The notes beneath the pieces are model-generated. The model worked only from the letters and a program-made list of their open reading frames with translations, ran no database searches and was not told where the DNA came from. From the NCBI RefSeq assembly GCF_030450125.1, contig NZ_CP123923.1, positions 4,340,001-4,404,000 of the forward strand: a DNA stretch of 64,000 nucleotides, given 5' to 3'. Shown here piece after piece: positions 12,696 through 29,053 of this stretch. A program made the position numbers and the translations under genes. The stretch's first letter is position 1; the number at the start of each line of letters is the position of its first letter. Source of the stretch: Streptomyces sp. WP-1 (GTDB lineage Bacteria; Actinomycetota; Actinomycetes; Streptomycetales; Streptomycetaceae).

Positions 12696-12722
12696 GCGGA
12701 CGCGGTGGGTAGCGTGCCGGGC

Positions 12723-13367
12723 ATGACCGAACTCATCGCCGACGTACCGGACTTCGCCGCCTTCCGGGACATTCCCACCACCACCCTCGCCGATCTGCTC
12801 GGCGTGGAGCAGGTCATGGACATCGGGATACGGCCGCTGTGGGGGCCGGTGCCCCGGGTGGCCGGGCCCGCGTTCACCGTGAGCTGCCCGCCCGGCGACA
12901 ACCTCATGCTGCACGCGGCGATCCACCGCGCCGCCCCCGGCTCGGTGATCGTGGTCGAGTCCGGCGATCTGCGGTACGCCCTGGCCGGCGGCAATGTGTG
13001 CGCCGTGGCGCAGCGCCACGGCATCGCCGCGTTCGTCGCCGACGGGGTGATCCGCGATCTCGCCGAGGTGCGTGACCTGGGCTTCCCCGTCTTCGCCCGG
13101 GGGATCGTGCCCATCCCGGGCGTGAAGGAGATCGCCACTCCCTTCGGGCGGCCGGTGCGCTGCGGGGGCGTGCGGATCGAGGCCGGGGACGTGGTGGTGG
13201 CCGACGAGGAGGGCGTGGTCGCCGTCCCGGCCACCCGCGCCCCCGCCGTCCTCACGGCCGCCCGCACCAAGCTCGCCAAGGAGGCGGAACAGTCGCTGGA
13301 CGACTGGGAGCGGGCACACCGGACGCGGATCGACGAGATCCTGGCGGCGCAGGGGTTCGAGGGGTGA
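12723..13367 (+). CDS. RraA-fold family protein
   Basis: A 214-residue protein of the RraA/4-hydroxy-4-methyl-2-oxoglutarate aldolase family. The core shows GPAFTVSCPPGDNLMLHAAI, then GGNVCAVAQRHGIAAFVADG and VIRDLAEVRDLGFPVFARG, which includes the conserved Arg-Asp pair for divalent metal and oxyanion binding. Members are either aldolases or oxaloacetate decarboxylases; true RNase E regulators are a narrow subgroup. The start is ATG at 12723. It follows helR by 27 bases but shares no obvious function with it. Confidence 0.8.
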   Translation: MTELIADVPDFAAFRDIPTTTLADLLGVEQVMDIGIRPLWGPVPRVAGPAFTVSCPPGDNLMLHAAIHRAAPGSVIVVESGDLRYALAGGNVCAVAQRHGIAAFVADGVIRDLAEVRDLGFPVFARGIVPIPGVKEIATPFGRPVRCGGVRIEAGDVVVADEEGVVAVPATRAPAVLTAARTKLAKEAEQSLDDWERAHRTRIDEILAAQGFEG

Positions 13368-13480
13368 GGTGAGGGGGCGGGCCTGGGGGGGCCTGAGGGG
13401 TGGAGCCCGACGCCGACGCCGACGGCCCCGCTCGTCCCGTCTTCCGGGTCCTGGGGGAGTGGCTCGCGGCGTGCTGGGGC

Positions 13481-15853
<2,373 letters not shown>

Positions 15854-16014
15854 GCGGGCCACGGTAGCCGGGGGCGCGGGAGAACCGCTTCTCCGATTCT
15901 GACCGGTTCCGGCGTACCCCCGGTCGCGCTCCCGTCCGGAGCGCTTGCCGCAGCGCCGGCTGCCTCGCCTCGCCCCCCTGATCGCCGGCTGCCCCGCGCC
16001 GTCCCCCGGCTTCC

Positions 16015-16494
16015 TCATCCGCTCCACGGCGACGCGGTGATCTCCGGCGGCTCCCAGACCGAGCAGTCGTGGGCGAAGAGCACGCGCCGGGGGCCGACGT
16101 CGGCGAGCCGGTCCAGCCGGCGCCGATAGGGCGGAAGCGGCTGCTCCACGCTCTGAAGTGCCGCCTGGCGGGCCAGTTGCTCGGAGGCGAAGTCGTATGC
16201 CTGGCCGGCCAGGAGGGGGTTCCCGCCGCAGTGGTCGAAGTGCAGATGGCAGTTCACGACGAGGGAGATGTCGTCGAGGGCGACTCCGGACGCCGCCAGG
16301 GCGTCCCGCAGCGCCCGCCGCCGGGGCCGGTGGTGCGCCTCGGTCTGCGGCTCCCCGTCGCCGATGCCGGTGTCGAAGAGGATCAGCCCCCTGTCGTGTC
16401 GCACCAGGTAGGCGAGGACGGGTTCCACCCGCGGCCGCGGGCCGCCCGTCTCCGCCGCGGGCCGGACGAAACATCCCGGATCGAGCCGGCGCAC
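16015..16494 (-). pseudogene. Truncated metallo-beta-lactamase-fold hydrolase (AHL-lactonase-like)
   Basis: The 159-residue frame begins like an N-acyl-homoserine-lactonase-type MBL protein: LILFDTGIGDG and the metal motif NCHLHFDHCGGN are intact. After about residue 105 it jumps to the C-terminal end of such proteins (RRVLFAHDCSVWEPPEI). The middle of the domain, which should carry the third metal-binding His and the bridging Asp, is absent. An internal deletion keeping frame is the simplest explanation. It lies between the UvrA paralogue and the biosynthetic operon, a junction where decay is plausible. A functional short protein is possible but unlikely. Confidence 0.65.
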
Positions 16495-16620
16495 CGCCGT
16501 CCTCGTGCCCCTGCCGGGCCCCCTTCGCCCGTTCCCAGTCGAGGTGATCAGCCGAGCCTCTTCTGAAAAGGGAGCTTGCTCGTTATGGCTACTCCGCGAG
16601 GCTCGAAGTGAAATGAACGG

Positions 16621-17532
16621 TTACGTGTGACGTGCGATCACCCTGAGCGCGAGCTCTCGTGCGTGGTCGGCTGCCGCCGGTCCGCGGCTCGGGTCGGGCG
16701 CCTCGGAGAGGAAGACGAGAGCCAGCATCAGTGCGGCGTCCAGTCGGCACACCAACAAGCACGGATCGCTGTCGGGCGGAACCATTGCCGTCATCGCGTA
16801 TCCGCTGCGGATCGCTTCCATATCGAGCTCGTTCTCCGGATACCGCGCATACTCGACAAGGCGCCCAAATTCCACCGAGGGGGACCCGAGCAGGGCGTTC
16901 GACCAATCCAGCAGGGCGACGGTCTGCCCCTGCCGCCGTCGGATGTTGTCGCTGCGGACGTCGAGGTGCAGGAGGCTGGCCCCGGTGAGGCTGGTGAGAT
17001 GTCCGGCGACAAGAGACGCGTCCGGCGGTTCGGGCCAGTCGTCGACAAGGCGGCCGATCTCGGCCCAACGGCGCCCGATACGTGCGGTGATCGCGCTCGC
17101 CGTAGGCACTCCCTCCGACGCGACGGGCGTCAGACGCGGTGGCGGCACCTGATGAAGCCGCGCGAGGAGCCGCCCCAGCGCGAAGGAGTCGAGATCCGAT
17201 CCGTCGTCGGGGACATATGCGGACAGCAGTACGTCGGGGGATGCCGGCTCGTCCGCCAGGACGAGTTCCTTCGCCTCAGGGACGGGCAGACCGTGGGCGG
17301 TCAGATGCCTCGCGATCTCGTACTCCTGCCGGAGCAGGGCCCGGGTGTCCACATGGGGGTCATTGGCGTTCGAGTCGAATCGCCGGTGCGCGAGACGTAC
17401 CGCGACGGGCTGCCCGTCGCGCCCTCGCGCCCGATGGACGGAGAATTCCAGACCCTTGCCGACCAGTTCCAGGTCGCTCAAGCCCCACCGTTCGGCCAGG
17501 CTGTCCAACTCGGCGAATCGCTTACTCATCAT
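16621..17532 (-). CDS. APH/choline-kinase-fold phosphotransferase of the LanB-like operon
   Basis: A 303-residue kinase with catalytic loop LLHLDVRSDNIRRR near residue 188 and metal-binding LLDWSNALLGSPSVEFGRL; both the Asp and the Asn of the loop are present. It is the last gene of an eight-gene minus-strand operon: its start overlaps the end of the MFS gene by 11 bases. Two adjacent ATG codons (17532 and 17529) can serve as start. Beside an exporter, it may phosphorylate the pathway product as self-protection or as a tailoring step; that is inference. It is not closely similar to the tandem kinase at 7743. Confidence 0.8.
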   Translation of the reverse strand: MMSKRFAELDSLAERWGLSDLELVGKGLEFSVHRARGRDGQPVAVRLAHRRFDSNANDPHVDTRALLRQEYEIARHLTAHGLPVPEAKELVLADEPASPDVLLSAYVPDDGSDLDSFALGRLLARLHQVPPPRLTPVASEGVPTASAITARIGRRWAEIGRLVDDWPEPPDASLVAGHLTSLTGASLLHLDVRSDNIRRRQGQTVALLDWSNALLGSPSVEFGRLVEYARYPENELDMEAIRSGYAMTAMVPPDSDPCLLVCRLDAALMLALVFLSEAPDPSRGPAAADHARELALRVIARHT

Positions 17533-18766
17533 GTGCGCCTTCGGGGGTCTTGCGGTCGTCGGTGATCCTGCTGTCCTTCAGCAGATTGAAAGCGATGGGC
17601 ACGCACATCACCAGTGTGACCGCGCCGCCGACCGCGAAGGCCGTCTGCGGCCCCGCCGACGTGCCCAGCCAGCCGAAGATCAGCGCGCCGAGGGGCATCG
17701 TCCCCCAGGCGAACAACCGATACACGCCCGTTGCCCGGCCGAGGAGGTGATCCGGGATGAGTTCCTGCCGCAGGGAGACAGCCACGACGTTCCAGACCAT
17801 GAGGCCGAACCCGGCGACGCAGTATCCGGCGGTGACCACGTACACGCTGTCGGTTGCCGCCACCGCCAGACCTCCCAGACCCATCAGGGCCAGGTTCCCG
17901 ATCAGGGTGGGGACCCGGCCCATCGCTGCGGTCATACGGCTCGCGGCCATGCTGCCGACCACGCCCCCGGCAGCTCCGGCGGCCAGCAGTGCCCCGTACG
18001 CGGCGTCCGGGAGTTCGAGCACGTCGCGCACCAGGACGACGAAGACGGCGATCTGTCCCAGGTACACAGCGTTGATGACGCCCGCGGAGAGGGTCAGGGC
18101 GCGCAACAGAGGGTCACGCAGCACGTGGACCAGGCCCTCGCGGATGTCGGTCAGGAGCTGTGGCCTGGCAGTGGATTGCTCGGGCTGCGGCCCGCGAACG
18201 CCGGTCAGCAGCGCCGCGGACATCAGGAAGGAGAGTGCGTCGAGCAGGAGGGGAATCGCCCTGCCCGCCACGAAGAGCACGCCGCCGAGCACATGTCCCA
18301 GCAGATCGCGGCCCACGGTCTGGACCGCGAAGAGCCGGCCGTTCGCCGCCTCCAGCTTCTCTTTGGGGACGATGCTCGGCAGCAGCGCGAAGGACGCGCA
18401 GTCGAACAGCACCTCCCCGACACCCAGCAGGAACGCCGCGGTCATCAGGGGCCACAACGTCAGCCAGCCGCAGGCGAGCAGCACCACGGTGACGATCAGC
18501 GTCAGGGCGCGCAGCAGGTCGGCGATGACCATCAGGCGACCGCGCTCGAACCGGTCGGCATACGCCCCTGCCGGCAGTCCGAACAGCAGCCAGGGCACCG
18601 TCGTGGCCGCGGTGACCGCGGACACCTGGAACGCGTCGCGCAGCAGCGCGGCGGACAGCAGCGGAAGGGCGGCGAAACGCATGCCGTCGCCGACAGCCGA
18701 CGCGCTCGCAGCACCGATCACCCGGTGATAGCCGGAACCGAAGCGAAAGGTGGTGTCTGCGCTCAC
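17522..18766 (-). CDS. MFS exporter of the LanB-like operon
   Basis: A 414-residue major facilitator with about 12 hydrophobic segments. The loop GLPAGAYADRFERGRLMV between the second and third segments is the MFS motif A region. It resembles the MFS_3/enterobactin exporter-type group often found with natural-product genes. GTG at 18766 overlaps the LanB-like stop as GTGA, and its own stop overlaps the kinase gene. Likely role: export of the pathway product through the cytoplasmic membrane. Longer upstream starts would lie inside the LanB gene. Confidence 0.85.
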   Translation of the reverse strand: MSADTTFRFGSGYHRVIGAASASAVGDGMRFAALPLLSAALLRDAFQVSAVTAATTVPWLLFGLPAGAYADRFERGRLMVIADLLRALTLIVTVVLLACGWLTLWPLMTAAFLLGVGEVLFDCASFALLPSIVPKEKLEAANGRLFAVQTVGRDLLGHVLGGVLFVAGRAIPLLLDALSFLMSAALLTGVRGPQPEQSTARPQLLTDIREGLVHVLRDPLLRALTLSAGVINAVYLGQIAVFVVLVRDVLELPDAAYGALLAAGAAGGVVGSMAASRMTAAMGRVPTLIGNLALMGLGGLAVAATDSVYVVTAGYCVAGFGLMVWNVVAVSLRQELIPDHLLGRATGVYRLFAWGTMPLGALIFGWLGTSAGPQTAFAVGGAVTLVMCVPIAFNLLKDSRITDDRKTPEGAHDE

Positions 18767-21348
18767 CTCGGGCTCCCCGGTGAGAACACGGCGCACCGCA
18801 GCTCGCTGGTGTAGCGATGACCGTGCACGCTCAGCCAGCGTTGGTCGGGCGTGGGCAACATCTCGGAGATCTCCAGTGTGCCGTCCTTCCGTGCGGCCAG
18901 TCGGCACAACTGCCGTACCAGGAGCGGAGCCTGCCAGTCGACGTAGATCGGCTTCGGCTCATCGGGGACCTTGACGAAGACGTGCCGGGGCAGGCCGAGC
19001 TCGGAACGCAGTCGGCAGGCCGCGACGAACTCCGCGGCCTCCTCGCCGCCCGTCTGTCCCACGGGGCCGTCGAAGGCGGCCGCACCACGCAGGCGGGCGG
19101 CGGGGACCCGCCAGGTCTCGCGTTGCAGGACGACACGGCCACAGCGGATACGGGGGATGTGCTCCAGTGTGGGGGCGTCCAGTCCCGCCCCGCCGAAGTG
19201 ACGCGGGAAAGCGAACGGGGAGAGCGGGTCCTGGCGGATGCTCGGTCCGCCGGCCGGGGGTGCCATGAGTCGTAGCCTTCCCGCGACACCCTGGGCACGC
19301 AGTTCCAGCCGTCCGTCACGGAGCACGACGTACAGCTGGGAGGGCTGCACCACCCGGTCGCGCGACTGCCCGGAACGGCCGTAGACCTCCAGGTCGTAGC
19401 AGGGGTAGACGAGCTGCGTCGACGACTTGTCCGGGTGGCCACGTGACAGGTTGGCGAGGACCTCGCCGTCGTCGAGCAGGGACAGGTAGCCCTCGTACAC
19501 CGCTGGCAGCAGCTCCGGGGCGCGTTCCTGGATCAGGGGGCCGAAGCTGGTGTGGGTGATGACCTCCCGGACGGCGTGGCAGTCTCCGATCACCGCGGTG
19601 AACCGGCCCTCCCGCAGGTCCTGACGACGTGCGGCAGCGAACAGCACGTCCGGATCGACGACTGCCGCAGGCGTACGGGGATGGGCAGCGAGGATCGCCT
19701 CCATCCGGTCCCTTTCCACGACGACCTCCGGCCGGTCCACACCCCCCTCCCCCAGCAGGGCGTCGGTGATCACCCGGTCGAGCGCCGCCAGTTCGGCCTC
19801 AACGGCGGCGCACTCCTCCTCAAGGGCGTGCCGGTCCCGGAAGAACTCCGAGTAGAGGCGGTCCAGGGGGACCTCGACATCGGCGCCGAAGTGCTCCGTC
19901 ACCCATCGCGTGAGAACGGCGAGCTCACGCCGCATGCGCAGCCGTGGACGCGCGAGCACGGTCTCGTACACGATCGACAGTTCGTCCGTGATGAAACGGG
20001 CGATGTCCGGGCCGATGGTCAGGCCGGCCGGCTCGCCGTGGGCCTCCTCGAACAGGACGCTCCGGTCGGCGTAGTGCAGGCCGCCGTTGCGGTTCGCGGG
20101 GGTTCCCGTCAGTTTCTCGAACCTGGCCTTGGTCGCGGCCAGTGCGGCAGGCCGCTCGGCAAGGGGCAGCTTCGCGAAGCGGGCCAGGTCCTCCTCGAAG
20201 TGACCGATGGCGGAGAGGATCGGCGCGGCCTGCCCCGGTGGAGCGGAGAGCAGCTGTCGGCGCAGGACGGCCAGGGGCTCGTGATCGCCGACAGGGATCT
20301 CGAACTCGGCCACCACCCACTCTTGCGCGACCAGCTCCTTCAGCACCAGGTCGAAGGGGACGGGGATGCGGGAACCGAACTCGGTATCCCACTCCGAGCG
20401 CAACTCGCGGAGCGATCGTTCGCCGTCGCAGCGCTGCCACAGCCATTCCTCGTGCGCTGCCACCTCCCTGCCCCCGAGATGTCGGAAGTTCCAGTCGGTG
20501 TCCAGCCCGTCCCGAGTGGTGAACGCGTAGAGGTCGATACGGCCGTCGCGCAGGAAGGACAGCGGGCGCCTGCGAGGACGTACGAAGTCGAACAGGCCGG
20601 GGACCGCAGCGGCGCTCTGGGCGAGCTTCTCCGCGGCCCAGTGGCTGAAGAGCGTCCGGCGCTCCATCTCCCGTTCCGAGGTCCATGCGATGCCCGGCAC
20701 TTCCCCGACCCGGCCCACGGTGAACGGTCCGAAGTGGGAGTGGGTCTCGTTCTTCGTTGTCACCCGCTGGAGGTACATGGTGAGCAGGTCGGTCATTCTG
20801 CGGGTGTGCCGCCCCATATCCCCCTGGAAGGTGTCGAGCCACGCGGCGAACTCCGGGTACGCAGCGTCGTTCGACAGCAGCAGCACTTGCCGCAGGTGCT
20901 CGTCGCCGAACGCCTCGACCACGGCGGTTCTCGCGCGCTCCAGCCGGGTGCGGTGCCGGGCGGCAAAGGCATCCTGTTCCCCGGCGAACTCCTCTGCCAA
21001 GGCCTGGTAGGCGCGCAGAGTGCGTGCCGCCTCGTCGGGCAGCGCTGCGGTGGCCCGCCGCAGTTCACGGCCTGGCAGCGGCCGCAGCTGCCCCACGCGC
21101 GACGCCGACTGCGGGCAACCGGGGACCTGGTGCTGCCGCAGCACCGGCTTGAGTTCCCGCGCCAGCGAAGTCAGCCGGCTCCTGCTCTCCAGGAGAGCGT
21201 GGGCCTCATCGACGGAGGCGGGGTCCACGAGGGGGGTGAGCGCCTCCATCGGGAAGCCGGCCTGCCGGAGCACGACGATCGGTACAAGCCTCCACGCCCC
21301 GCCCGGGACGGTGCTGGTGGCGGTCTGGGGGTCGTTGACGCTGGTCAC
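18763..21348 (-). CDS. LanB-like protein 1 (lantibiotic dehydratase N-domain; PEARL candidate)
   Basis: 861 residues, the same length as its paralogue at 25814. The Lant_dehydr_N-type fold is suggested by MYLQRVTTKNETHSHFGPF (about residues 190-208) and the C-terminal stretch with EPKPIYVDWQAPLLVRQL and TSELRCAVF. Full LanB dehydratases carry a further domain of about 300 residues (SpaB_C) that eliminates glutamate; I see none here, nor as a separate gene. That leaves a tRNA-dependent glutamylation domain or a peptide aminoacyl-tRNA ligase (PEARL). GTG at 21348 overlaps the PHP gene stop as GTGA. It is the sixth gene of the operon. Confidence 0.8.
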   Translation of the reverse strand: MTSVNDPQTATSTVPGGAWRLVPIVVLRQAGFPMEALTPLVDPASVDEAHALLESRSRLTSLARELKPVLRQHQVPGCPQSASRVGQLRPLPGRELRRATAALPDEAARTLRAYQALAEEFAGEQDAFAARHRTRLERARTAVVEAFGDEHLRQVLLLSNDAAYPEFAAWLDTFQGDMGRHTRRMTDLLTMYLQRVTTKNETHSHFGPFTVGRVGEVPGIAWTSEREMERRTLFSHWAAEKLAQSAAAVPGLFDFVRPRRRPLSFLRDGRIDLYAFTTRDGLDTDWNFRHLGGREVAAHEEWLWQRCDGERSLRELRSEWDTEFGSRIPVPFDLVLKELVAQEWVVAEFEIPVGDHEPLAVLRRQLLSAPPGQAAPILSAIGHFEEDLARFAKLPLAERPAALAATKARFEKLTGTPANRNGGLHYADRSVLFEEAHGEPAGLTIGPDIARFITDELSIVYETVLARPRLRMRRELAVLTRWVTEHFGADVEVPLDRLYSEFFRDRHALEEECAAVEAELAALDRVITDALLGEGGVDRPEVVVERDRMEAILAAHPRTPAAVVDPDVLFAAARRQDLREGRFTAVIGDCHAVREVITHTSFGPLIQERAPELLPAVYEGYLSLLDDGEVLANLSRGHPDKSSTQLVYPCYDLEVYGRSGQSRDRVVQPSQLYVVLRDGRLELRAQGVAGRLRLMAPPAGGPSIRQDPLSPFAFPRHFGGAGLDAPTLEHIPRIRCGRVVLQRETWRVPAARLRGAAAFDGPVGQTGGEEAAEFVAACRLRSELGLPRHVFVKVPDEPKPIYVDWQAPLLVRQLCRLAARKDGTLEISEMLPTPDQRWLSVHGHRYTSELRCAVFSPGSPR

Positions 21349-22280
21349 AGCCCTGCCTCGGTACTCGTGCGGACGGGACGACGGTCGTGCAGCGCGTCGA
21401 TGACGGCCAGGGGATCCGCGGGGAGAGCGGGCAGCAGGCCGGGCCGCGGCGCCCAGGGCTTGACCCGCGCCCCGTGGTAGTCGGACCCGGCTGTCGCGAC
21501 GAGGCCAAGCAGGTCGCACACGTCGGTGAGGCGGGCGCTGACAGCCGGCGTATGCCAGCTCGTCCACACTTCGAGCCCTGCCAGTCCGGCTTCCGCCAGT
21601 GGCTTCAGCAGCTCCACGCATTCGGAAACGTCCAGGCCCGTCACGAACGTGCCGGGGTGTGCGAGGACGGCGGCCCCGCCCGCCTCCTCGATCCATGACA
21701 GGACGTCGGCCACGTCGGGCTTCTCAGGATGCTCCACATGGAGTGGCCGACCGGGACGACACCAGTCGGCCACGAGCCGGTCGTACGCCTCGGCCGTGTA
21801 AGCGGCGAACCTCGGGTCGCCGTGCGTTGCCTCCAGCAGCAGGGCGAGATAGTCGCCGACGTAGGCCACACGGTGGCCGCCGAGGCGCCGCACCACATCG
21901 TCCCAGGTGAGCGGCACTCCTATGGCCTGGACGCGGTCGGTCCAGGTGCGCCACCACACCAGTTCGGCGTCGTGGATGCCACCGATCCGTTCCCGGAACT
22001 TCGGGTCACGGGGGTCGACGAAGTAGGCCAGGCAGTGGGTCTCCTCGCCACGCCAGGTGGCGGTGATCTCGCAAGCCGGTACGACGGTGAGGCGTCCGCC
22101 GATGGCCTGATCGAACGCGGCGATGCCGGCCACGGTGTTGTGGTCAGTCACGGCGGCCACGCGTAGCCCGGCGTCGACACAGCGCCGCGCCAGCTCTGCC
22201 GGAGCCTCGTCCCCGTCGGAGTGCCGGGTGTGCAGATGCAAGTCGACCGAGGTGGCGAGAGTGGCGGACGGCCCCCGCAT
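21345..22280 (-). CDS. PHP-domain phosphoesterase
   Basis: A 311-residue protein of the polymerase-and-histidinol-phosphatase (PHP) superfamily. Metal-binding motifs are visible in order: DLHLHTRHSDGD (residues 13-24), AVTDHNTVAGI (D46, H47), ACEITA, VLAHPGTF and ATAGSDYHG near the C-terminus. Single-domain PHP proteins hydrolyse phosphate esters or nucleotide 3',5'-diphosphates. ATG at 22280 shares one base with the preceding gene stop (TGATG), and its TGA overlaps the LanB-like GTG. In this operon it may remove phosphate from an intermediate; that is inference. Confidence 0.85.
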   Translation of the reverse strand: MRGPSATLATSVDLHLHTRHSDGDEAPAELARRCVDAGLRVAAVTDHNTVAGIAAFDQAIGGRLTVVPACEITATWRGEETHCLAYFVDPRDPKFRERIGGIHDAELVWWRTWTDRVQAIGVPLTWDDVVRRLGGHRVAYVGDYLALLLEATHGDPRFAAYTAEAYDRLVADWCRPGRPLHVEHPEKPDVADVLSWIEEAGGAAVLAHPGTFVTGLDVSECVELLKPLAEAGLAGLEVWTSWHTPAVSARLTDVCDLLGLVATAGSDYHGARVKPWAPRPGLLPALPADPLAVIDALHDRRPVRTSTEAGL

Positions 22281-23332
22281 CAATGCGCTCCGGGAAGGGT
22301 ACGCCGCCAGGACGCGGCCAGCCATCGCTCGTACTCGGGGCCGGCTGGGGTGTCCATGACCAGGCACAGTGGTTCGATGATCCGCCCCGGGCCGCCGGCC
22401 AGGCCGCCGTGGAGCATGGTGAGGTTGTGGCCGAACAACAGGTCGCAGTGCTCACCCGGTGCGAGTACTTCCCAGCGGCGTCGGAACTGTGCCCAGGTCA
22501 GGCCGGTGGCCATGAGCACCTGATGGCAGAAGAGACGTGCCGCCTCGCCCTCGCAGTCCCCGCAGGCACAGCGCTGGGCCAGTGGCACGGCGGCGGGGTG
22601 GCGAACCCGTTCCTCCTTCGTCAGCACGGCCTCGCCGTGGTGGAAGGACAGGCCGTGCCAAAGGGGCTCCTCCAGACCGAGCATGGCTCCGAACGACGGA
22701 TAGGCGCAGCCGTGCTCCGGCTGACGCTCCAGCCCCCGGCGCAGGTTGGCACCGATCCAGCGTGCCGCAGCGGCCGGCCGATCGTCCCCGGCTTCGATGC
22801 CACGCCGGTCGAGCACGTCGTCGATGACGCCGAGCCAGTCGTAGTACGTCGTGACGCTCAGTCCTTCTCCCACGTCGGGGAGGAAGATGCCCTGGTACAT
22901 CTTGTGCGCGGGAGTGGTGGTGTAGCCGGAGCTGCCGAACTCTCTCCAGGCGGGATCCCAGTCGGGCGCGTCCTGGAGGCTGGGCGTCAGATAGGAGCAG
23001 TGCTGTCCGTCGTGGTGGGGCAGCAGGGTCCGGGTGGAGAAGCCCTCGGGTACGTACGTCTGCTGCGACCGGTCGATCTCCAGCCGCATCTTTGCGGGGG
23101 CGCCACGGGCGATCAGCGCGGCGCGGATCCGTCCGGCCAGGGCTGTCGACAGCCGACGGCTCTCCTCGACGCCCAGCCGCAGGCGGCCGATACGGAACAC
23201 CGCGAAGCCAACCCGGTGGATGACGCCGACGGACGCGGCGGCCAAGTCGTCCAGTGCCTGTTCGCGCCGGTCCTGCGGCCCAAAGACGAGACCGGTGCAG
23301 TCGAACTGAGCCTCTGTGGGGGTGAATTTCAC
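22280..23332 (-). CDS. Unassigned protein, possible Fe(II)/2-oxoglutarate oxygenase
   Basis: 350 residues, not confidently recognised. RTLLPHHDGQH contains an H-x-D triad start (H106, D108). Near the C-terminus GHNLTMLHGG with R317 in PGRIIEP could supply the distal His and the 2-oxoglutarate-binding Arg, an order like TauD/clavaminate-synthase proteins. A CACGDCEG segment near residue 255 could bind zinc or be structural. GTG at 23332 overlaps the upstream stop as GTGA, and its TGA shares a base with the PHP start. Membership in the operon is firm; the enzyme class is inference from spacing of residues. Confidence 0.5.
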   Translation of the reverse strand: MKFTPTEAQFDCTGLVFGPQDRREQALDDLAAASVGVIHRVGFAVFRIGRLRLGVEESRRLSTALAGRIRAALIARGAPAKMRLEIDRSQQTYVPEGFSTRTLLPHHDGQHCSYLTPSLQDAPDWDPAWREFGSSGYTTTPAHKMYQGIFLPDVGEGLSVTTYYDWLGVIDDVLDRRGIEAGDDRPAAAARWIGANLRRGLERQPEHGCAYPSFGAMLGLEEPLWHGLSFHHGEAVLTKEERVRHPAAVPLAQRCACGDCEGEAARLFCHQVLMATGLTWAQFRRRWEVLAPGEHCDLLFGHNLTMLHGGLAGGPGRIIEPLCLVMDTPAGPEYERWLAASWRRTLPGAH

Positions 23333-24423
23333 TGGTGCTCCAGGGGTTCGTCAAAGGTGCCGTCGGACCAGGGCGCGAACTCGGACGCAACGCACTCGGT
23401 GCGGAACAGGAACTCGAAGAGCAGGCGTGCCGCGATCTGGGCGGTGCCACCGGACGGGTCGTAGCGAGGTGCGACCTCCGCCACGTCGACGGCGCCTACG
23501 GGAAGCGCGCGGAGTTCCTCGTAGACGTCGAGGAGGTCCCCGGTGCTGATGCCGCCCATGGTCACGTGGCCGGTGCCGGACGCCGAGGCGCTGTCGAGCA
23601 CGTCGATGTCGAGCGAGACGTAGACCGTGTCACACCGCGAGCCGAGTTCCTCGATGAGGGGGCGCAGAGCGGCGGCGGCGCCGTCCCTGACGATCTGGGA
23701 GCCCGGCACGACGTGGAAGCCGCTGTCGATCAGACCTCGGTACTGGTCGTACTTGGTCACGTCGCCGACGCCGACGAAGGCCATGTCCTCCGGACGCATC
23801 TGTGGGATCTCGCTGATCCTGCGGGAGTTGGAGCCGTGGTACAGCGGCCCGTGCAGCGTGCTCCAGTTGCCGAAATCGAAGTGATGGTCGATGTTGATGA
23901 ACCCCACGCGGCCCGCGCCGCGGTCGAGCCGCCCGGCACGGAAACCGGCGAACGTCGGGAAGGTGCACGAGTGGTCACCGTTGAGGAAGATCAGACGCGG
24001 CGCGGACTGGCTCAGCCGACGGCTCTCCGCCGCGACGGCCTGGAACGTCCGCACGGTGTTCGTCGGGTAGACGTGCAGGTCACCGGCATCCGCGACCTGG
24101 GGGGCGCGGTAGCGGAACGCCTGGCCGGTACGGGTGTCCAGCATCCGCCACTGTCCCAGACTGGTCAGATAGCTGGAGAAGACCAGGCTTGCCTGGCGGA
24201 TGGCCCGGGGCCCTTCCGCGGCTCCCGGCCGGGAACTGGCGGTGGCGTCGAAAGGAACACCGGACACCACCCAGCCGTCCTCTCCCACGTCCACCCGGTC
24301 GGCGCGGGTGGTGGGGGTACCGAAGAGCGTCGCGACACCCGCCCATCCCGGAAGCGGGTCCTCCGCGAAGTCCTCGGCCTTGACACCGTTCTGCAGCGCT
24401 TCGAAGTCGGGGAGCTCGGTCAT
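23329..24423 (-). CDS. Ureohydrolase (arginase/agmatinase fold)
   Basis: 364 residues of the ureohydrolase family. Manganese-binding motifs are complete in order: LNGDHSC (H151), NIDHHFD (D179, H181, D183), YVSLDIDVLD (D272, D274), and DVAEVAPRYD, which carries the conserved Glu. The canonical GGDH is NGDH and the usual PGTG segment is SGTG, so it is a divergent member. It lies one base after the radical SAM gene. In RiPP clusters, arginase-fold enzymes convert Arg to ornithine in peptides; free arginine, agmatine or another guanidine are alternatives. Confidence 0.82.
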   Translation of the reverse strand: MTELPDFEALQNGVKAEDFAEDPLPGWAGVATLFGTPTTRADRVDVGEDGWVVSGVPFDATASSRPGAAEGPRAIRQASLVFSSYLTSLGQWRMLDTRTGQAFRYRAPQVADAGDLHVYPTNTVRTFQAVAAESRRLSQSAPRLIFLNGDHSCTFPTFAGFRAGRLDRGAGRVGFINIDHHFDFGNWSTLHGPLYHGSNSRRISEIPQMRPEDMAFVGVGDVTKYDQYRGLIDSGFHVVPGSQIVRDGAAAALRPLIEELGSRCDTVYVSLDIDVLDSASASGTGHVTMGGISTGDLLDVYEELRALPVGAVDVAEVAPRYDPSGGTAQIAARLLFEFLFRTECVASEFAPWSDGTFDEPLEHQ

Positions 24424-24424
24424 G

Positions 24425-25765
24425 TCACTTCTCCTGCGCAGAGGACGTGGGAACGGTCACCGGGGTGCGGATGATGTCGTGCGCAGCGGCGATCTTCTCC
24501 TGGAACAGGTCCCAGCTCGCTTCGGGAGACAGATGCTGCGGCCGGTAGACGACGGGTACGTCCTCCCGCCAGTCGGCGAAGTCCCAGTTGAATATGCGCT
24601 CACGCAGCCTCGGGAAGTCCGGGGTGAGCGGGTAGGGAACGAAGTTGTAGAGGTTGAAGAGCCACAGCGCCGAGCTGTTCTCCCGCATCCAGTCGACGGT
24701 CTGGCCGTGCGCGGCTTCCGTCTCCTCGTCGAGGCCGCCCATCATGTTGAGCACGACCTTCAGGCCGGCGTCGCTCAACTTGTGGATTTTCGTGGTGTAG
24801 TCGTCGAGGCCGCGTGAGAGTTTGTTGAGCCGTTTCAGCATCTGGGAGTCGGCCGACTCGAAGCCGAGTTCCACGGCGACGACGCCGAGTTCCCGCATGG
24901 CGTCGACGATCCAGTCCTTCACCTGCATGACATGTGTCTGCACGATGAACCGGTATCCGGGCCGGTCGCGGAAGACGTCCAACAAGTTGGCGACCGCTTC
25001 GCGTGACTGGCCGAATGTCTTGTCGCCGATGTAGAAGAGCCGGGTGTCCGGGAACCGGGCGGTGAGTTCGTCCACTTCCTGCTCAAGGGCGCCCTTCTCC
25101 ACGAGGGTGAGCTGCTTGCTCCAGGCGTCGCCGCAGAAAGAGCACTGGTACAGGCATCCGTGGCTGGCGTTGAGCCGCAGCAGAGGAACCCGGCCCTCGT
25201 AGCCGCCGAGATGGCGGTAGTCCGGTGCCCAGGTGATCCGCTCGGACACCAGCCCGGGCAGAAGAGGCTTCTCCAGGCCCCCGCCCGCTCCGGAGGCGAG
25301 GCCCACGAGCCTGCGCACGAAGGTGGCGTCGAGCTGGCCGCGGTGTACCGCGTGGACGGAACCGTCCGGGGCGAGTGGGGCCATGTTCCCGCCGAGGACG
25401 ACACGGCGTCCGGCGTGCTCCAGGTGTTTGGCCACGTCCAGCGCGAGGCGGAAGTTCTGGGCGAGAGGGGACATGAGGACCAGATCGCCGGGGGTTGTCG
25501 CCTCCAGCAATGGTTCGGAGCAGGCGTCCGGTTCCGCCGGCGTCCTCGACAGGTCACGGAAGACGGAGTCGATGCCCGCAGTGTCCAGCAGCGCAGTCAG
25601 ATGGGCGACCCACAGCGGCATCTCCCACAACCCGTCGGACGGGATGAAGTACTCGGGGAGCAGCGCCCGGAACCTCCGGTCGTAGTCGTCGTAGTAGCTC
25701 GACAGGTGGATGTCCGGGTCATGACTGGAGGGGAAAGGAAGTTGGACTATGCAGCTCTTGGGCAT
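24425..25765 (-). CDS. B12-binding-type radical SAM enzyme
   Basis: 446 residues. The radical SAM cluster motif CX3CX2C lies at C204, C208 and C211 in ASHGCLYQCSFCG. The preceding 150 residues look like a Rossmann-type cobalamin-binding domain (GDLVLMSPL, then RVVLGGNMAPLAPDGS), with no obvious DxHxxG, so cobalamin may bind base-on or be lost. After the core, ELGFESADSQMLKRLNK is typical of this family. ATG at 25765 has AAAGGGA upstream. It is the second gene of the operon, 48 bases after LanB-like protein 2. Methylation or another radical modification of a substrate is likely. Confidence 0.85.
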   Translation of the reverse strand: MPKSCIVQLPFPSSHDPDIHLSSYYDDYDRRFRALLPEYFIPSDGLWEMPLWVAHLTALLDTAGIDSVFRDLSRTPAEPDACSEPLLEATTPGDLVLMSPLAQNFRLALDVAKHLEHAGRRVVLGGNMAPLAPDGSVHAVHRGQLDATFVRRLVGLASGAGGGLEKPLLPGLVSERITWAPDYRHLGGYEGRVPLLRLNASHGCLYQCSFCGDAWSKQLTLVEKGALEQEVDELTARFPDTRLFYIGDKTFGQSREAVANLLDVFRDRPGYRFIVQTHVMQVKDWIVDAMRELGVVAVELGFESADSQMLKRLNKLSRGLDDYTTKIHKLSDAGLKVVLNMMGGLDEETEAAHGQTVDWMRENSSALWLFNLYNFVPYPLTPDFPRLRERIFNWDFADWREDVPVVYRPQHLSPEASWDLFQEKIAAAHDIIRTPVTVPTSSAQEK

Positions 25766-25813
25766 GGTCGTCCCTTTGCTCGATGATGATGGGGCATCCT
25801 CGAAGTGGAGCGG

Positions 25814-28399
25814 TCAGCTGGAACCGCGGGAGAAGACCGCACAGCGCAGCTCGCTCGTATGGCGTTCTCCGTCGATCTCGAGCCAGAGTTGTTCCGGCGA
25901 CGGGAGCATTTCGCTGAATTCCAAGGGGGAGTCCGACCTCCGGGCAAGACGGAAGATCTGCCTGACGAGGAGAGGGGACTCCCAGTCGACGTACACCGGT
26001 TTCGGCTCGCCGGGGATCTTCAGGAAACCGTGGCGGGGCAGGTCCAGGTCACGGCGGAGCCTGCGAGCGGCGGCGAACTCGGCCGCATCCCCCTTTGCCG
26101 GGCGCCCCCCGGGGCTCCATCCGCGAAGGGCGTTCGCGGATATGCGCCAGCGCTCCCGATGCAGTACGACGCGGCCGCAGCGGATGCGTGGCAGATGGTC
26201 GTGACCGGTGCTGCGTATTCCGACGCCTCCGAAGTGCCGGGGGAAGGCGAACGGGGACAACGGGTCCTGGCGGATGCTCGGTCCGCCGGCCAGCGGGGCG
26301 AGCAGCTTCAGCCGGCCCTCCATTCCCTGGGCGCGTAGCTCCAGGCGTTCGGCGGTCGCCACGACGTACAGCTGATGGGGCTGGAGCACGGCGCCCCGAT
26401 CCTTCGGGGACAGTCCGTGGACCTCCAGGTCCGGGCAGGGATAGGTCAGTTGGGCGGCGGTCTTGTCAGGATGTGCGCGGGAGAGGTCGATCAGCACCTC
26501 GTCCTCGTCGAGAAGGCTCTGGTACCGCGTGTAGATCTCGTCGAGCAGGTCCGGAGCCTCGGCCTGCATCATCGAGGCGAAGCTGGAGTGGGTGAGCGCC
26601 TCGCGGACGGCATGGCAGTCGCCCACGACGGCGAGGAAGTCGCCGTCGGCGAGCGCGTCGGCGTCCAGTGCGGCGAGCATGACGTCCGGATTGCACAGCG
26701 CCGGTGGCGTGGCCGGATGGCGCGCGAGCAGTTCCTCCAGCTGACCCCGGTCGACGACCGTCTCGTGCTGATCGCCGGTGGTTCCTGCCAGCAGTACGGT
26801 AGTGATCTCGTGGTCGAGCGTCGCGATGTCCCGGTCCACTTCCTCGCACTGTCGGGCGAGCTGCGGCTTGTCCTCGAAGAAGCCGGCGTAGAAGTGCTGG
26901 AGAGGGACGGGGTTTCCCAGGCCGAAGCGTTCCTTCATCCAGCCGTGCAGGATTTCCTGCTCGCGGCGGATACGGAGCCGGGGGGCGAGGAGTGTCAGAT
27001 TGTAGACCACGGACAGTTCGCGGCTGATGAGGTTCTCGACGTCGTGGCCGAGGGTCATGTTCCGGACGGGGCTGTACGCCTCCTCATAGAGAACGCTCCG
27101 GTCGGAGTAGTGCAGTCCCTGGGAACGGTTGGCTGCCGTCCCGGTGATCTCCTCGAACTTCTTCTTGAGGCTGCTCAGCAGGGCTGCACGGTCCTCGACC
27201 GGGCCGTCGGCGAACTGCCGCAGTGCATCGGCGAACCACTGCACCACCGCGAGCTCGGCTGTCCCTTCCTTCAGGTGTCCGGTCAGCGTCTGGAGAGGAT
27301 CGGCGGCTCCGACGGGAATTTCCCAGCGTGCCATCAGCCAGCCGTCGCTCACCAGTTCATGCAGCACCTCGTCGAAAGTGCGCTGGGACGGGGTGCCGCC
27401 GCGTCGCGTCCATGCGGCGCGGAGCTGTGCCACTGTGCGCTCGCCTTCGCACAGATCCCACAGCCACGTCTGGTCGTTGTCGAACGTTTCGGCCGTCACC
27501 TCGACGAAGCGCCAGTCGTCCGGCATGCCCGTCCGCGTCTCGAAGGCGTACAGCCGGATCCGCGAATCCTGGCTGAACGCGAGCGGGCGCCGCCGAGGAC
27601 GTACGGTCTCGAAGTGCTCAGGGCGGCCGCTGAACGCTTCGGCGATCGCTTCACCTGCCCAGTGGCTCAGGAAGGCGATGCGCCGCAGTGGACCGGTGGA
27701 CCAGGAGATCCCCGCGGTGGCGGGTGCCGTCCGGGCCACCGCGAGAGGGCCGAAGTGCGAATGTGTCTCGTTCTTCGTCGTGACCCGCTGGAGATACATG
27801 GCGAGCAGGTCGGTCATGCGCTTGACGTGCCCGTCCGAACCTCCTCCGCCACCGTCGATCCATCCGGCGAACTCCTCGAAGCGTGCGTCGTTCGACAGGA
27901 GCAGAACCTGTTGGAGCGCGGGGTCCCGGAAGAGGCGTACGACAGTCTCCCGGCCGCGCATCAGCGCGGCAGCGTGATCCTTCTCGAAGGACACCCACAC
28001 GCTGTCCAGGGCCAGAACCGCGTCCTGGTAGCGCTTGACCATCTCCATGGACGTCGGGCCGAGGTCTGTCTCCAAGCGTGCGAGATCCCGCGGCGAAAAA
28101 GGCCGCAGCATGCCCACCCCGGAGGCGATGTCCCCCTTCGTACCCACGCGCTCCTCGCGCAGCACCGCCTTCAGCCGTTGCCCGATCTGAAGCGCCTCGT
28201 CGCAGCGGGCGAGTACGGCATCCGCGGCTCTCGGAGTCGACGAGTCGGCGAGTTTGTGCAGGAGAGAGCAGGGGAATCCGGCGTGGCGCAGCAGCATGAT
28301 CGGAGCGAGCGCCCACTCGCTGCGGTCACTGGAGTGGTCGGTCGGGATGTTGCCACCCCGAAGCCATGCGTCGTCCTGATGCTGTCCTCGCCCGTTCAT
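25814..28399 (-). CDS. LanB-like protein 2 (lantibiotic dehydratase N-domain; PEARL candidate)
   Basis: 861 residues and first gene of the eight-gene operon. It shares with LanB-like protein 1 the segment YLQRVTTKNETHSHFGP (about residues 202-218), a VGDCHAVREALTHSSF stretch, GPSIRQDPLSPFAFPRHFGG and the ending SELRCAVFSRGSS. Like its paralogue it lacks a recognisable SpaB_C elimination domain. The start ATG at 28399 gives MNGRGQHQDD; divergence from the paralogue is greatest in the first 100 residues. The two copies may add different aminoacyl groups, or work as a pair. Confidence 0.8.
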   Translation of the reverse strand: MNGRGQHQDDAWLRGGNIPTDHSSDRSEWALAPIMLLRHAGFPCSLLHKLADSSTPRAADAVLARCDEALQIGQRLKAVLREERVGTKGDIASGVGMLRPFSPRDLARLETDLGPTSMEMVKRYQDAVLALDSVWVSFEKDHAAALMRGRETVVRLFRDPALQQVLLLSNDARFEEFAGWIDGGGGGSDGHVKRMTDLLAMYLQRVTTKNETHSHFGPLAVARTAPATAGISWSTGPLRRIAFLSHWAGEAIAEAFSGRPEHFETVRPRRRPLAFSQDSRIRLYAFETRTGMPDDWRFVEVTAETFDNDQTWLWDLCEGERTVAQLRAAWTRRGGTPSQRTFDEVLHELVSDGWLMARWEIPVGAADPLQTLTGHLKEGTAELAVVQWFADALRQFADGPVEDRAALLSSLKKKFEEITGTAANRSQGLHYSDRSVLYEEAYSPVRNMTLGHDVENLISRELSVVYNLTLLAPRLRIRREQEILHGWMKERFGLGNPVPLQHFYAGFFEDKPQLARQCEEVDRDIATLDHEITTVLLAGTTGDQHETVVDRGQLEELLARHPATPPALCNPDVMLAALDADALADGDFLAVVGDCHAVREALTHSSFASMMQAEAPDLLDEIYTRYQSLLDEDEVLIDLSRAHPDKTAAQLTYPCPDLEVHGLSPKDRGAVLQPHQLYVVATAERLELRAQGMEGRLKLLAPLAGGPSIRQDPLSPFAFPRHFGGVGIRSTGHDHLPRIRCGRVVLHRERWRISANALRGWSPGGRPAKGDAAEFAAARRLRRDLDLPRHGFLKIPGEPKPVYVDWESPLLVRQIFRLARRSDSPLEFSEMLPSPEQLWLEIDGERHTSELRCAVFSRGSS

Positions 28400-28621
28400 G
28401 ACCGCCCCTGTTGCCGCTCAGTGCCCACAACAGGGTGTGACGCTAGTCATGCAATGAGACGTCTTCAATGGCATATGCGTGGGCTCGCCGACTTCAAGCC
28501 AAAGATGGGGCGATCACGCGACACCTGTCGTGCTCGGGCCCGACCCGGGGGCTCGACACCCTCACGCACTATTGCAAGCGGGTGCTTGCAATTGTTAGCG
28601 GGGGTGGGGCATGGTGGAGGC
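28400..28621 (+). promoter_or_regulatory. Divergent promoter region with XRE-side palindrome
   Basis: This 222-base gap separates the eight-gene operon from the XRE gene. ATTGCAAGC-GGGT-GCTTGCAAT at 28571-28592 is a perfect inverted repeat with nine-base arms, 29 bases before the XRE start, so it is a likely operator of that regulator. The side nearer the operon is relatively A+T-rich (around 28440-28475) and may hold its promoter. No convincing precursor-peptide gene was found in either strand. Confidence 0.65.
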
Positions 28622-29053
28622 ATGGCATCGCTGAACGTCGGCAATCTCGGTGAGTATCTGCGCGAGCAGCGGCGGAACGCCCAGCTGTCGCTGCGGCAGC
28701 TCGCCGAGGCGGCCGGGGTGTCCAATCCGTATCTGAGCCAGATCGAGCGCGGGCTGCGCAAGCCCAGCGCGGAGGTGTTGCAGCAGGTCGCCAAGGCCCT
28801 GCGGATCTCCGCCGAGACGCTGTACGTCCGCGCCGGCATCCTCGACGCCGAGCGGGACCGGGACGAGGTGGAGACGCGCGCCGTCATCCTCGCCGATCCC
28901 TCGCTCAACGAGCGGCAGAAGCAGGTGCTGCTCCAGATCTACGAGTCCTTCCGCAAGGAGAACGGATTCGGGACCGGCGAACCCGCGGGTGAGGACGGCG
29001 CGGAGCAGGGAACGGACGACGACGATGCCGGCTCGCGGCGGACGGCCGGCTGA
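28622..29053 (+). CDS. XRE-family regulator (Rv0474-like)
   Basis: 143 residues. A Cro/C1 helix-turn-helix occupies about residues 8-65: LGEYLREQRRNAQLSLRQLA, then GVSNPYLSQIERGLRKPSAE. A short helical region and an acidic C-terminal tail follow. ATG at 28622 follows GGTGGAGGC. The order XRE regulator, HbhA-like protein, DUF2516 membrane protein is that of Rv0474-Rv0476 in Mycobacterium tuberculosis, so this is conserved actinobacterial chromosome, not part of the adjacent operon. Confidence 0.86.
   Translation: MASLNVGNLGEYLREQRRNAQLSLRQLAEAAGVSNPYLSQIERGLRKPSAEVLQQVAKALRISAETLYVRAGILDAERDRDEVETRAVILADPSLNERQKQVLLQIYESFRKENGFGTGEPAGEDGAEQGTDDDDAGSRRTAG

Follow-up and report, generated by a model that had tools for sequence, protein, structure and literature searches.

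An eight-gene Streptomyces operon combines two LanB-like proteins with a candidate arginine-processing gene trio

Results

An operon of eight genes without a visible precursor

The window analysed here is a stretch of 64,000 nucleotides from Streptomyces sp. WP-1 (contig NZ_CP123923.1, positions 4,340,001 to 4,404,000), whose genome is a single contig of 7.62 Mb. It contains an eight-gene operon, all on the minus strand and running from 28399 to 16621, that encodes two LanB-like proteins (LanB1 and LanB2), a trio made up of a radical S-adenosylmethionine (SAM) protein, a ureohydrolase and Ox4, a probable iron- and 2-oxoglutarate-dependent (Fe/2OG) oxygenase, and further a PHP phosphoesterase, an MFS protein and an APH-fold kinase. 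With slightly better than even confidence, we read this operon as a pathway that would build a modified small peptide, or an amino-acid conjugate, with no ribosomal precursor. A bolder proposal, to which we give somewhat less than even weight, is that its LanBs are the first LanB-derived aminoacyl-tRNA ligases whose acceptor is a small amino acid in free form, in a pathway lacking both a ribosomal carrier and a non-ribosomal peptide synthetase (NRPS), and that the amide-forming module is evolutionarily interchangeable with FemAB-like or ATP-grasp enzymes around an arginine-processing trio. The protein families are known; their combination, the missing precursor and the exchange of modules are new. 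A preliminary description made from the letters alone had not recognised the gene set as a described pathway, and we likewise found no title or abstract describing it, subscription journals being mostly outside the coverage of the search.

The same description had outlined a tightly coupled one-directional operon, and this layout stands. In the order LanB1, radical SAM, ureohydrolase, Ox4, PHP phosphoesterase, LanB2, MFS and APH-fold kinase (5' to 3'), the genes are separated by one 48-base gap and one 1-base gap and overlap by 1-11 bases at the five other junctions (48, 1, -4, -1, -4, -4 and -11 bases in transcription order). PEARL below stands for peptide aminoacyl-tRNA ligase.

25814..28399, minus strand: LanB1, 861 residues, small LanB-like protein with Lant_dehydr_N alone and PEARL-type active-site residues (PF04738, 6.6e-42)
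24425..25765, minus strand: radical SAM protein, 446 residues, CxxxCxxC at 204/208/211 (PF04055, 2e-13)
23329..24423, minus strand: ureohydrolase, 364 residues, metal-ligand positions retained (PF00491, 2.9e-57)
22280..23332, minus strand: Ox4 (gene 4), probable Fe/2OG oxygenase, 350 residues, H106-x-D108...H308...R317
21345..22280, minus strand: PHP phosphoesterase, 311 residues (PHP match 9.9e-08)
18763..21348, minus strand: LanB2, 861 residues, GTG start, small LanB-like protein (PF04738, 7e-32)
17522..18766, minus strand: predicted MFS exporter, 414 residues (Pfam MFS)
16621..17532, minus strand: APH-fold kinase, 303 residues, H189-x-D191, N196 and D209 retained (Pfam APH)

From this gene set we infer the following chemistry, conditional in its reactions, substrates and product. 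In the first step, the radical SAM enzyme, the ureohydrolase and the Fe/2OG oxygenase would convert arginine or a close relative to a non-standard amino acid, with the ureohydrolase releasing urea and unmasking an amine. LanB1 and LanB2 would then work in a PEARL-like manner: ATP would activate a carboxylate, which would be coupled to the amino group of an aminoacyl-tRNA, the acceptor being the small molecule made by the trio, or its first conjugate, and not a carrier peptide. Finally, the APH-fold kinase would phosphorylate the product or a late intermediate and keep it harmless, the PHP phosphatase (HAD in some relatives) would take off a phosphate, and the MFS protein would export the product. 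PEARLs are known mainly as extenders of carrier peptides, and this LanB pair makes small-molecule acceptors directly testable. The operon also directs attention to an unexplored group of small products, probably derived from arginine, whose pathways include a protection kinase of their own, and the trio beside any amide-forming gene is a handle for finding more such pathways.

The LanB pair carries PEARL-type residues

LanB1 and LanB2 are about 50% (49%) identical to each other and both match PF04738 alone, with no elimination domain. PF14028, the elimination domain, was found in none of the eight proteins and matched the host genome at three other places. Using residue numbers given in papers, together with spacing and with no alignment to the two proteins themselves, we matched eleven positions to residues of the ATP site and the tRNA CCA site of BhaB7 and TglB (PMC12945691, PMC11962472). 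All 22 LanBs compared keep R38, Y202, R205, Y431, R434, D572, H596, F792, K800, E850 and R852; R752 is replaced by W, and D594 by E, in one sequence each. Eleven LanBs from outside the operon family served as controls, eight from relatives and three from the host genome. The small LanBs of the relatives have most of the eleven residues too. A split LanB of the host genome, a glutamylation-type control whose neighbour carries an elimination domain, lacks five of them and keeps E850.

The motif KNE(T/S)(H/T)(S/A)HFGP occurs in all 22 LanBs, whereas the eight small LanBs of relatives read KN(D/E)(T/S)(I/T)(G/S)FFGP; it borders the putative CCA site, where it could signal a distinct specificity. 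A quick tree with ten of the eleven controls placed LanB1 and LanB2 in a group apart from these; among trio loci, the LanB1s and the LanB2s each formed a clade (support 98 and 100), and the long-branched LanB2s of L024 and L025 fell outside that of the LanB2s. As a side observation, the host genome encodes two more small LanBs with PEARL-type residues in a separate cluster (L052 3810-11931; C1, ~939-947 kb).

Like the PEARLs of pearlin pathways (TglB, AmmB, BhaB), the operon proteins are small LanBs without an elimination domain whose ATP- and tRNA-site residues can be matched by spacing, and they likely form amide bonds in an ATP- and aminoacyl-tRNA-dependent manner. They differ in motif (KNETHSHFGP-type, as against KNDTIGFFGP-type in the small LanBs of relatives) and in setting, with a trio and a kinase nearby and neither a protease nor, at 13 loci, a conserved short open reading frame (ORF). 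The tRNA dependence suggested in the preliminary description gains from the PEARL-type residues and from the FemAB-like genes that stand where LanBs are missing.

We favour the view that both LanBs would be aminoacyl-tRNA ligases on a small acceptor, because FemABX-like enzymes act on small molecules and SnaE needs no carrier. FemABX-like enzymes of natural-product pathways (VlmA, DhpH, DhpK, PacB and Orf11) use aminoacyl-tRNA to add amino acids to small molecules; they have another fold and acylate an amine or hydroxylamine, in place of carboxylate extension (PMC12945691). SnaE of the threopeptin pathway is a LanB-like ligase that works without a carrier peptide in a setting of arginine chemistry; it differs in belonging to an NRPS-polyketide synthase (PKS) cluster, sna, with one LanB-like protein, where the operon has two LanBs and no NRPS (PMC11212132).

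The trio recurs with different amide-forming genes

The radical SAM, ureohydrolase and Ox4 genes appear as a recurring module. Five loci carry the trio without LanBs (L039, L040, L041, L044 and L045); LanB searches of these five genomes found none in three and remote C-terminal matches only in two. In L039 and L040 (Micromonosporaceae) the trio is alone, with no LanB beside it and no LanB match genome-wide, which suggests that a free small molecule can serve as its substrate; in L039 a further APH-type gene faces the trio. The trio of L041, also from Micromonosporaceae, precedes genes for an APH kinase that shares 47% identity with the window kinase, a LAL-type ATP-grasp amino-acid ligase (LAL_C2 domain), a HAD phosphatase and two FemAB-like proteins, and that of L044 and L045, from other actinobacteria, precedes genes for an MFS protein, a FemAB-like protein, an APH protein and an S9 peptidase. 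Because an amide-forming set accompanies 14 of 16 trio loci (the LanB pair in 11, a FemAB-like gene in two, a ligase plus FemAB-like genes in one), the product of the trio would then be coupled to amino acids.

The L044 and L045 trios share 87-90% identity with that of the window and nest among LanB loci in the trio tree (support 97/98, midpoint root). Searching 8 kb upstream of their radical SAM gene revealed a decayed 3' end of LanB1, as two colinear stretches in each (E-values 4e-11 and 3e-9 in L045, 2e-6 and 1e-3 in L044). Its local score was 69 in L045, against a maximum of 24 in 1000 shuffles, and 45 against 30 in L044; L039, L040 and L041 scored below their own shuffles. Since the trio nests among LanB loci and the relic lies upstream of it, this lineage once had LanB1, lost it, and now carries the FemAB-like gene. 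We infer that the latter took over the job of the LanBs; ligation by the two runs in different directions, and the products would therefore be related, not identical.

Within the trio, the ureohydrolase metal ligands H151, D179, H181, D183, D272 and D274 are invariant in 16 of 16 sequences. The protein scores below the cut-off of every NCBIfam model matched, and its nearest PDB sequences include guanidinobutyrase, 3-guanidinopropionase and proclavaminate amidino hydrolase (PAH). The clavulanate pathway likewise combines a ureohydrolase, PAH, with a 2OG oxygenase; the operon differs from it in having a radical SAM enzyme and no beta-lactam-forming gene among its eight.

Neither Pfam nor NCBIfam matched Ox4 at E 0.01, and a sequence search of the PDB gave nothing at E 1. 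H106, D108, H308 and R317 are invariant in nine of nine sequences; over 33 rows H106 and R317 stay invariant, and D108 and H308 are kept at 90% or more. We take H106, D108 and H308 to be the facial triad and R317 the arginine of Fe/2OG oxygenases, and Ox4 is a probable member of these. Its fold may resemble that of arginine oxygenases among others, and a Foldseek search gave nothing significant. The intact ureohydrolase and this possible resemblance make the guanidine-derived product of the preliminary description plausible.

The radical SAM core is nearest to AprD4 among PDB sequences. Its B12-binding match is weak (PF02310, E 0.008, under cut-off), no DxHxxG was seen by eye, and its structure model is poor (predicted local distance difference test score, pLDDT, 54). 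A cob(I)alamin adenosyltransferase gene lies 3' of the kinase in four of 11 operons with trio and LanBs (L018, L023, L027 and L038), as a second copy in three of three genomes tested, and L019 retains a 42-residue remnant; the window genome, like each of four further trio genomes tested, has a single copy. The cluster-borne adenosyltransferase suggests that the radical SAM enzyme may need cobalamin.

The operon is rare and patchy

The complete set occurs in identical order at 10 loci (window, L018, L019, L020, L021, L023, L027, L028, L038 and L043) in Streptomyces, Actinacidiphila and Micromonosporaceae, so the neighbourhood is not a chance one. Both LanBs and the ureohydrolase co-occur at these loci, and the preliminary description had held that such a conserved co-occurrence would define the system. 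The independence of the genes, which it had named as a refuting outcome, proved partial: sub-sets do occur apart, yet as recurring modules. L022 has the set minus Ox4. In L024 and L025 the LanB pair is present but the radical SAM and ureohydrolase genes are missing; L025 also has a HAD phosphatase and no PHP. In L021, the PHP phosphoesterase and LanB2 lie within one open frame of 1232 codons (16208-19906), either because the genes are naturally fused or through an error in the draft assembly.

This operon of soil actinobacteria is uncommon and scattered in its distribution. Scanning 84,980 species genomes for the LanB pair, a search limited by its two short peptide patterns, gave 11 loci in 10 species. 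Among 100 relatives, long LanB matches outside the host's own genome reached at most 31% identity, and short C-terminal stretches up to 48%. Ox4 matches were found in 3 of 394 genomes of the class (the host, one relic and one weak), in 7 of 394 genomes of a family sample centred on G108 (one relic, and five already from the LanB-pair scan), in 2 of 14 genomes of one further family, and in 7 of 354 Micromonosporaceae (one relic, one distant). Plasmids yielded no relative of Ox4; a plasmid search with LanB2 returned 16 records, with LanBs all below 60% identity. Left out of these counts are L026, a second contig of the L025 strain with the same genes, and G842, whose coordinates and score equal those of G236 and which we took as the identical relic.

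Several loci are recorded here in their own right. G236 contains a decayed operon remnant (L030 559-1602) in which parts of Ox4, LanB2 and MFS survive at 79-91% identity. The LanB-pair variant L024 includes a CmoA-like methyltransferase (17344-18072; NCBIfam 1.7e-40, below cut-off) and a 469-residue protein with no Pfam or NCBIfam match (20094-21503). Its counterpart L025 encodes a 380-residue protein (16671-17813), possibly a new tailoring enzyme, whose sole match is a sub-threshold tetrapyrrole methylase (E 0.05). A distant Ox4 relative in G550 (L042 9077-10075, 26% identity) lies in an unrelated neighbourhood and adjoins, by eye, an apparent small kinase and a radical SAM-like protein.

The kinase as a candidate self-protection gene

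A kinase and an exporter accompany most arrangements, as does a phosphatase (PHP or HAD), no phosphatase being seen in L039, L040, L044 and L045. The operon kinase family also occurs in L024 and L025, without a full trio, and in L041, L044 and L045, without LanBs; since it follows both LanB-only and trio-only loci, it would fit the finished product and not a single module. In G1208, an intact APH-fold kinase gene (L066 7763-8823) lies directly behind an Ox4 remnant (last 43 residues). This kinase is 63% identical to that of the window, and the 18 kb read held no match to the other reference proteins. Because the kinase there outlives the pathway, as expected of a resistance gene, it looks like self-protection. 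A phosphorylated and exported product, as first suggested, is plausible from the genes present, with protection as the apparent role of the phosphorylation.

Search for a precursor peptide and alternative readings

One competing explanation, which we regard as unlikely, follows the pearlin type: the LanBs would extend the C-terminus of a ribosomal scaffold encoded elsewhere, the trio would modify the added residue on that scaffold, and a housekeeping protease would free it. The PEARLs reviewed in PMC12945691 do extend ribosomal precursor peptides, and in pbs, a biphenomycin-like pathway of a ribosomally synthesized and post-translationally modified peptide (RiPP), an arginase, a hydroxylase and a B12-dependent radical SAM enzyme act on a ribosomal peptide (PMC12257519). 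Pbs also has a ribosomal precursor, a multinuclear non-haem iron oxidative enzyme (MNIO) and a RiPP recognition element (RRE) partner (PMC12257519), none of which was found in the operon; no counterpart of its FHAFRF precursor, and no conserved short ORF, lies beside it.

For the precursor search, we compared ORFs of 18-130 codons from the flanks of 13 LanB-pair loci, taking in 2 kb upstream of LanB1 and 1.5 kb beyond the 3' end of the kinase gene. The largest group of the first pass joined all 13 loci, and the 14 members viewed look like GC-rich chance frames. A stricter pass over 382 ORFs, with low-complexity masking and near-full-length reciprocal matches, left four groups in at least three loci: three consist of frames on the adenosyltransferase gene or antisense to it, and the last is an 18-codon ORF. 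The latter spans the upstream blocks in the near-identical loci of the window, L018 and L019; considered as a precursor, it looks like a by-product of conserved DNA. A precursor hidden between promoter and LanB1 was also rejected, the conserved blocks stopping ~40 bases before the start codon. These flanks hold no conserved precursor-like ORF at any of the 13 loci, in keeping with the initial impression that no precursor is visible. Among the eight proteins there is no protease, no NRPS or PKS and none named as an MNIO. The peptide scaffold that had been offered as one option loses ground on the absence of such an ORF from the flanks searched and on the trio's presence in genomes without a detected LanB, and beside other amide-forming genes; the carrier it calls for could lie outside those flanks.

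It is rather improbable that the order is reversed, a LanB first placing arginine from Arg-tRNA on a small acceptor and the trio then modifying the conjugated arginine. LanB1 is the first gene, and the PDB neighbours of the ureohydrolase include enzymes on guanidino acids other than arginine, but L039 and L040 retain the trio without an adjoining LanB gene or a genomic LanB match. Glutamylation-type LanBs, making a tRNA-dependent ester on a hydroxyl with kinase and phosphatase serving elimination instead of amide formation, are very improbable: the Pfam name refers to lantibiotic dehydratase N-termini and the sole PDB sequence matched by the LanB profile at E 0.01 is 6ec7, a lantibiotic dehydratase domain protein, but none of the eight proteins has the elimination domain, and all 22 LanBs keep the Arg of E-x-R and the His of D/E-x-H where the split LanB reads E-L-A and D-S-F. 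A lanthipeptide or thiopeptide cluster was rejected, there being no elimination domain and no precursor beside the operon. So was a pyrroloiminoquinone-like cluster, as no protein matched a flavin enzyme.

Several points weigh against the precursor-free route that we prefer. A carrier peptide may be encoded elsewhere in the genome, the ORF search having covered the flanks. L039 and L040 have the trio without the operon kinase family and without an exporter in the trio locus, and Ox4 was not found anywhere in the L022 genome. The correspondence of LanB residues to BhaB7 and TglB is by numbering and spacing; one glutamylation-type control was usable, the LanB profile matching no ORF in L050 of the host genome. 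L044 and L045 have one FemAB-like protein against two LanBs, with weak FemAB matches (26.0 and 29.3 bits; cut-off 27), and the swap is not one-for-one chemistry, PEARLs extending carboxylates where the groups acylated by FemAB-type enzymes are amines or hydroxylamines (PMC12945691). Lastly, L020 (2-1315) and L028 (3-1691) contain an NRPS end (adenylation end, carrier and thioesterase) that lies ~8-9 kb upstream of LanB1; methyltransferase, MFS and glyoxalase-family genes fill the interval. The two are close relatives, and of the ten full loci they are those whose surroundings were searched for NRPS genes; the NRPS end may belong to a neighbouring, separate cluster. Because of it, our confidence in a precursor-free operon, and in the bolder proposal, is slightly lowered.

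Genomic setting

The upstream region contains one further feature.

28437..28471, minus strand: putative promoter blocks, TTGAAG (28463-28468) and TAGCGT (28440-28445) with a 17-base spacer, found by eye

These blocks are kept in five closely related loci, with TTGAAT as the variant in L027, and a consensus scan did not call the putative promoter. GC content at third codon positions is 0.80-0.88 in the operon genes against 0.94-0.97 in two flanking genes and 0.74 in a helix-turn-helix (HTH) gene, a weak sign consistent with acquisition.

An insert between conserved core genes had been proposed. The HTH gene (28623-29053) indeed matched in 26 of 26 genomes searched, the host counted; the interval itself is better described as a variable slot, as five of five fetched relatives have no operon DNA beside that gene. 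The insertion site next to it is common to the window, L027 and L043, and L018 and L019 are without that flank. The slot corresponds to 12690-28565 of the window and adjoins the HTH gene. The fifth fetched relative has no left-hand block within 13 kb. In the other four, ~2.8-9.1 kb separate that block, a uvrA-like gene in G003, from the HTH gene, with other DNA between.

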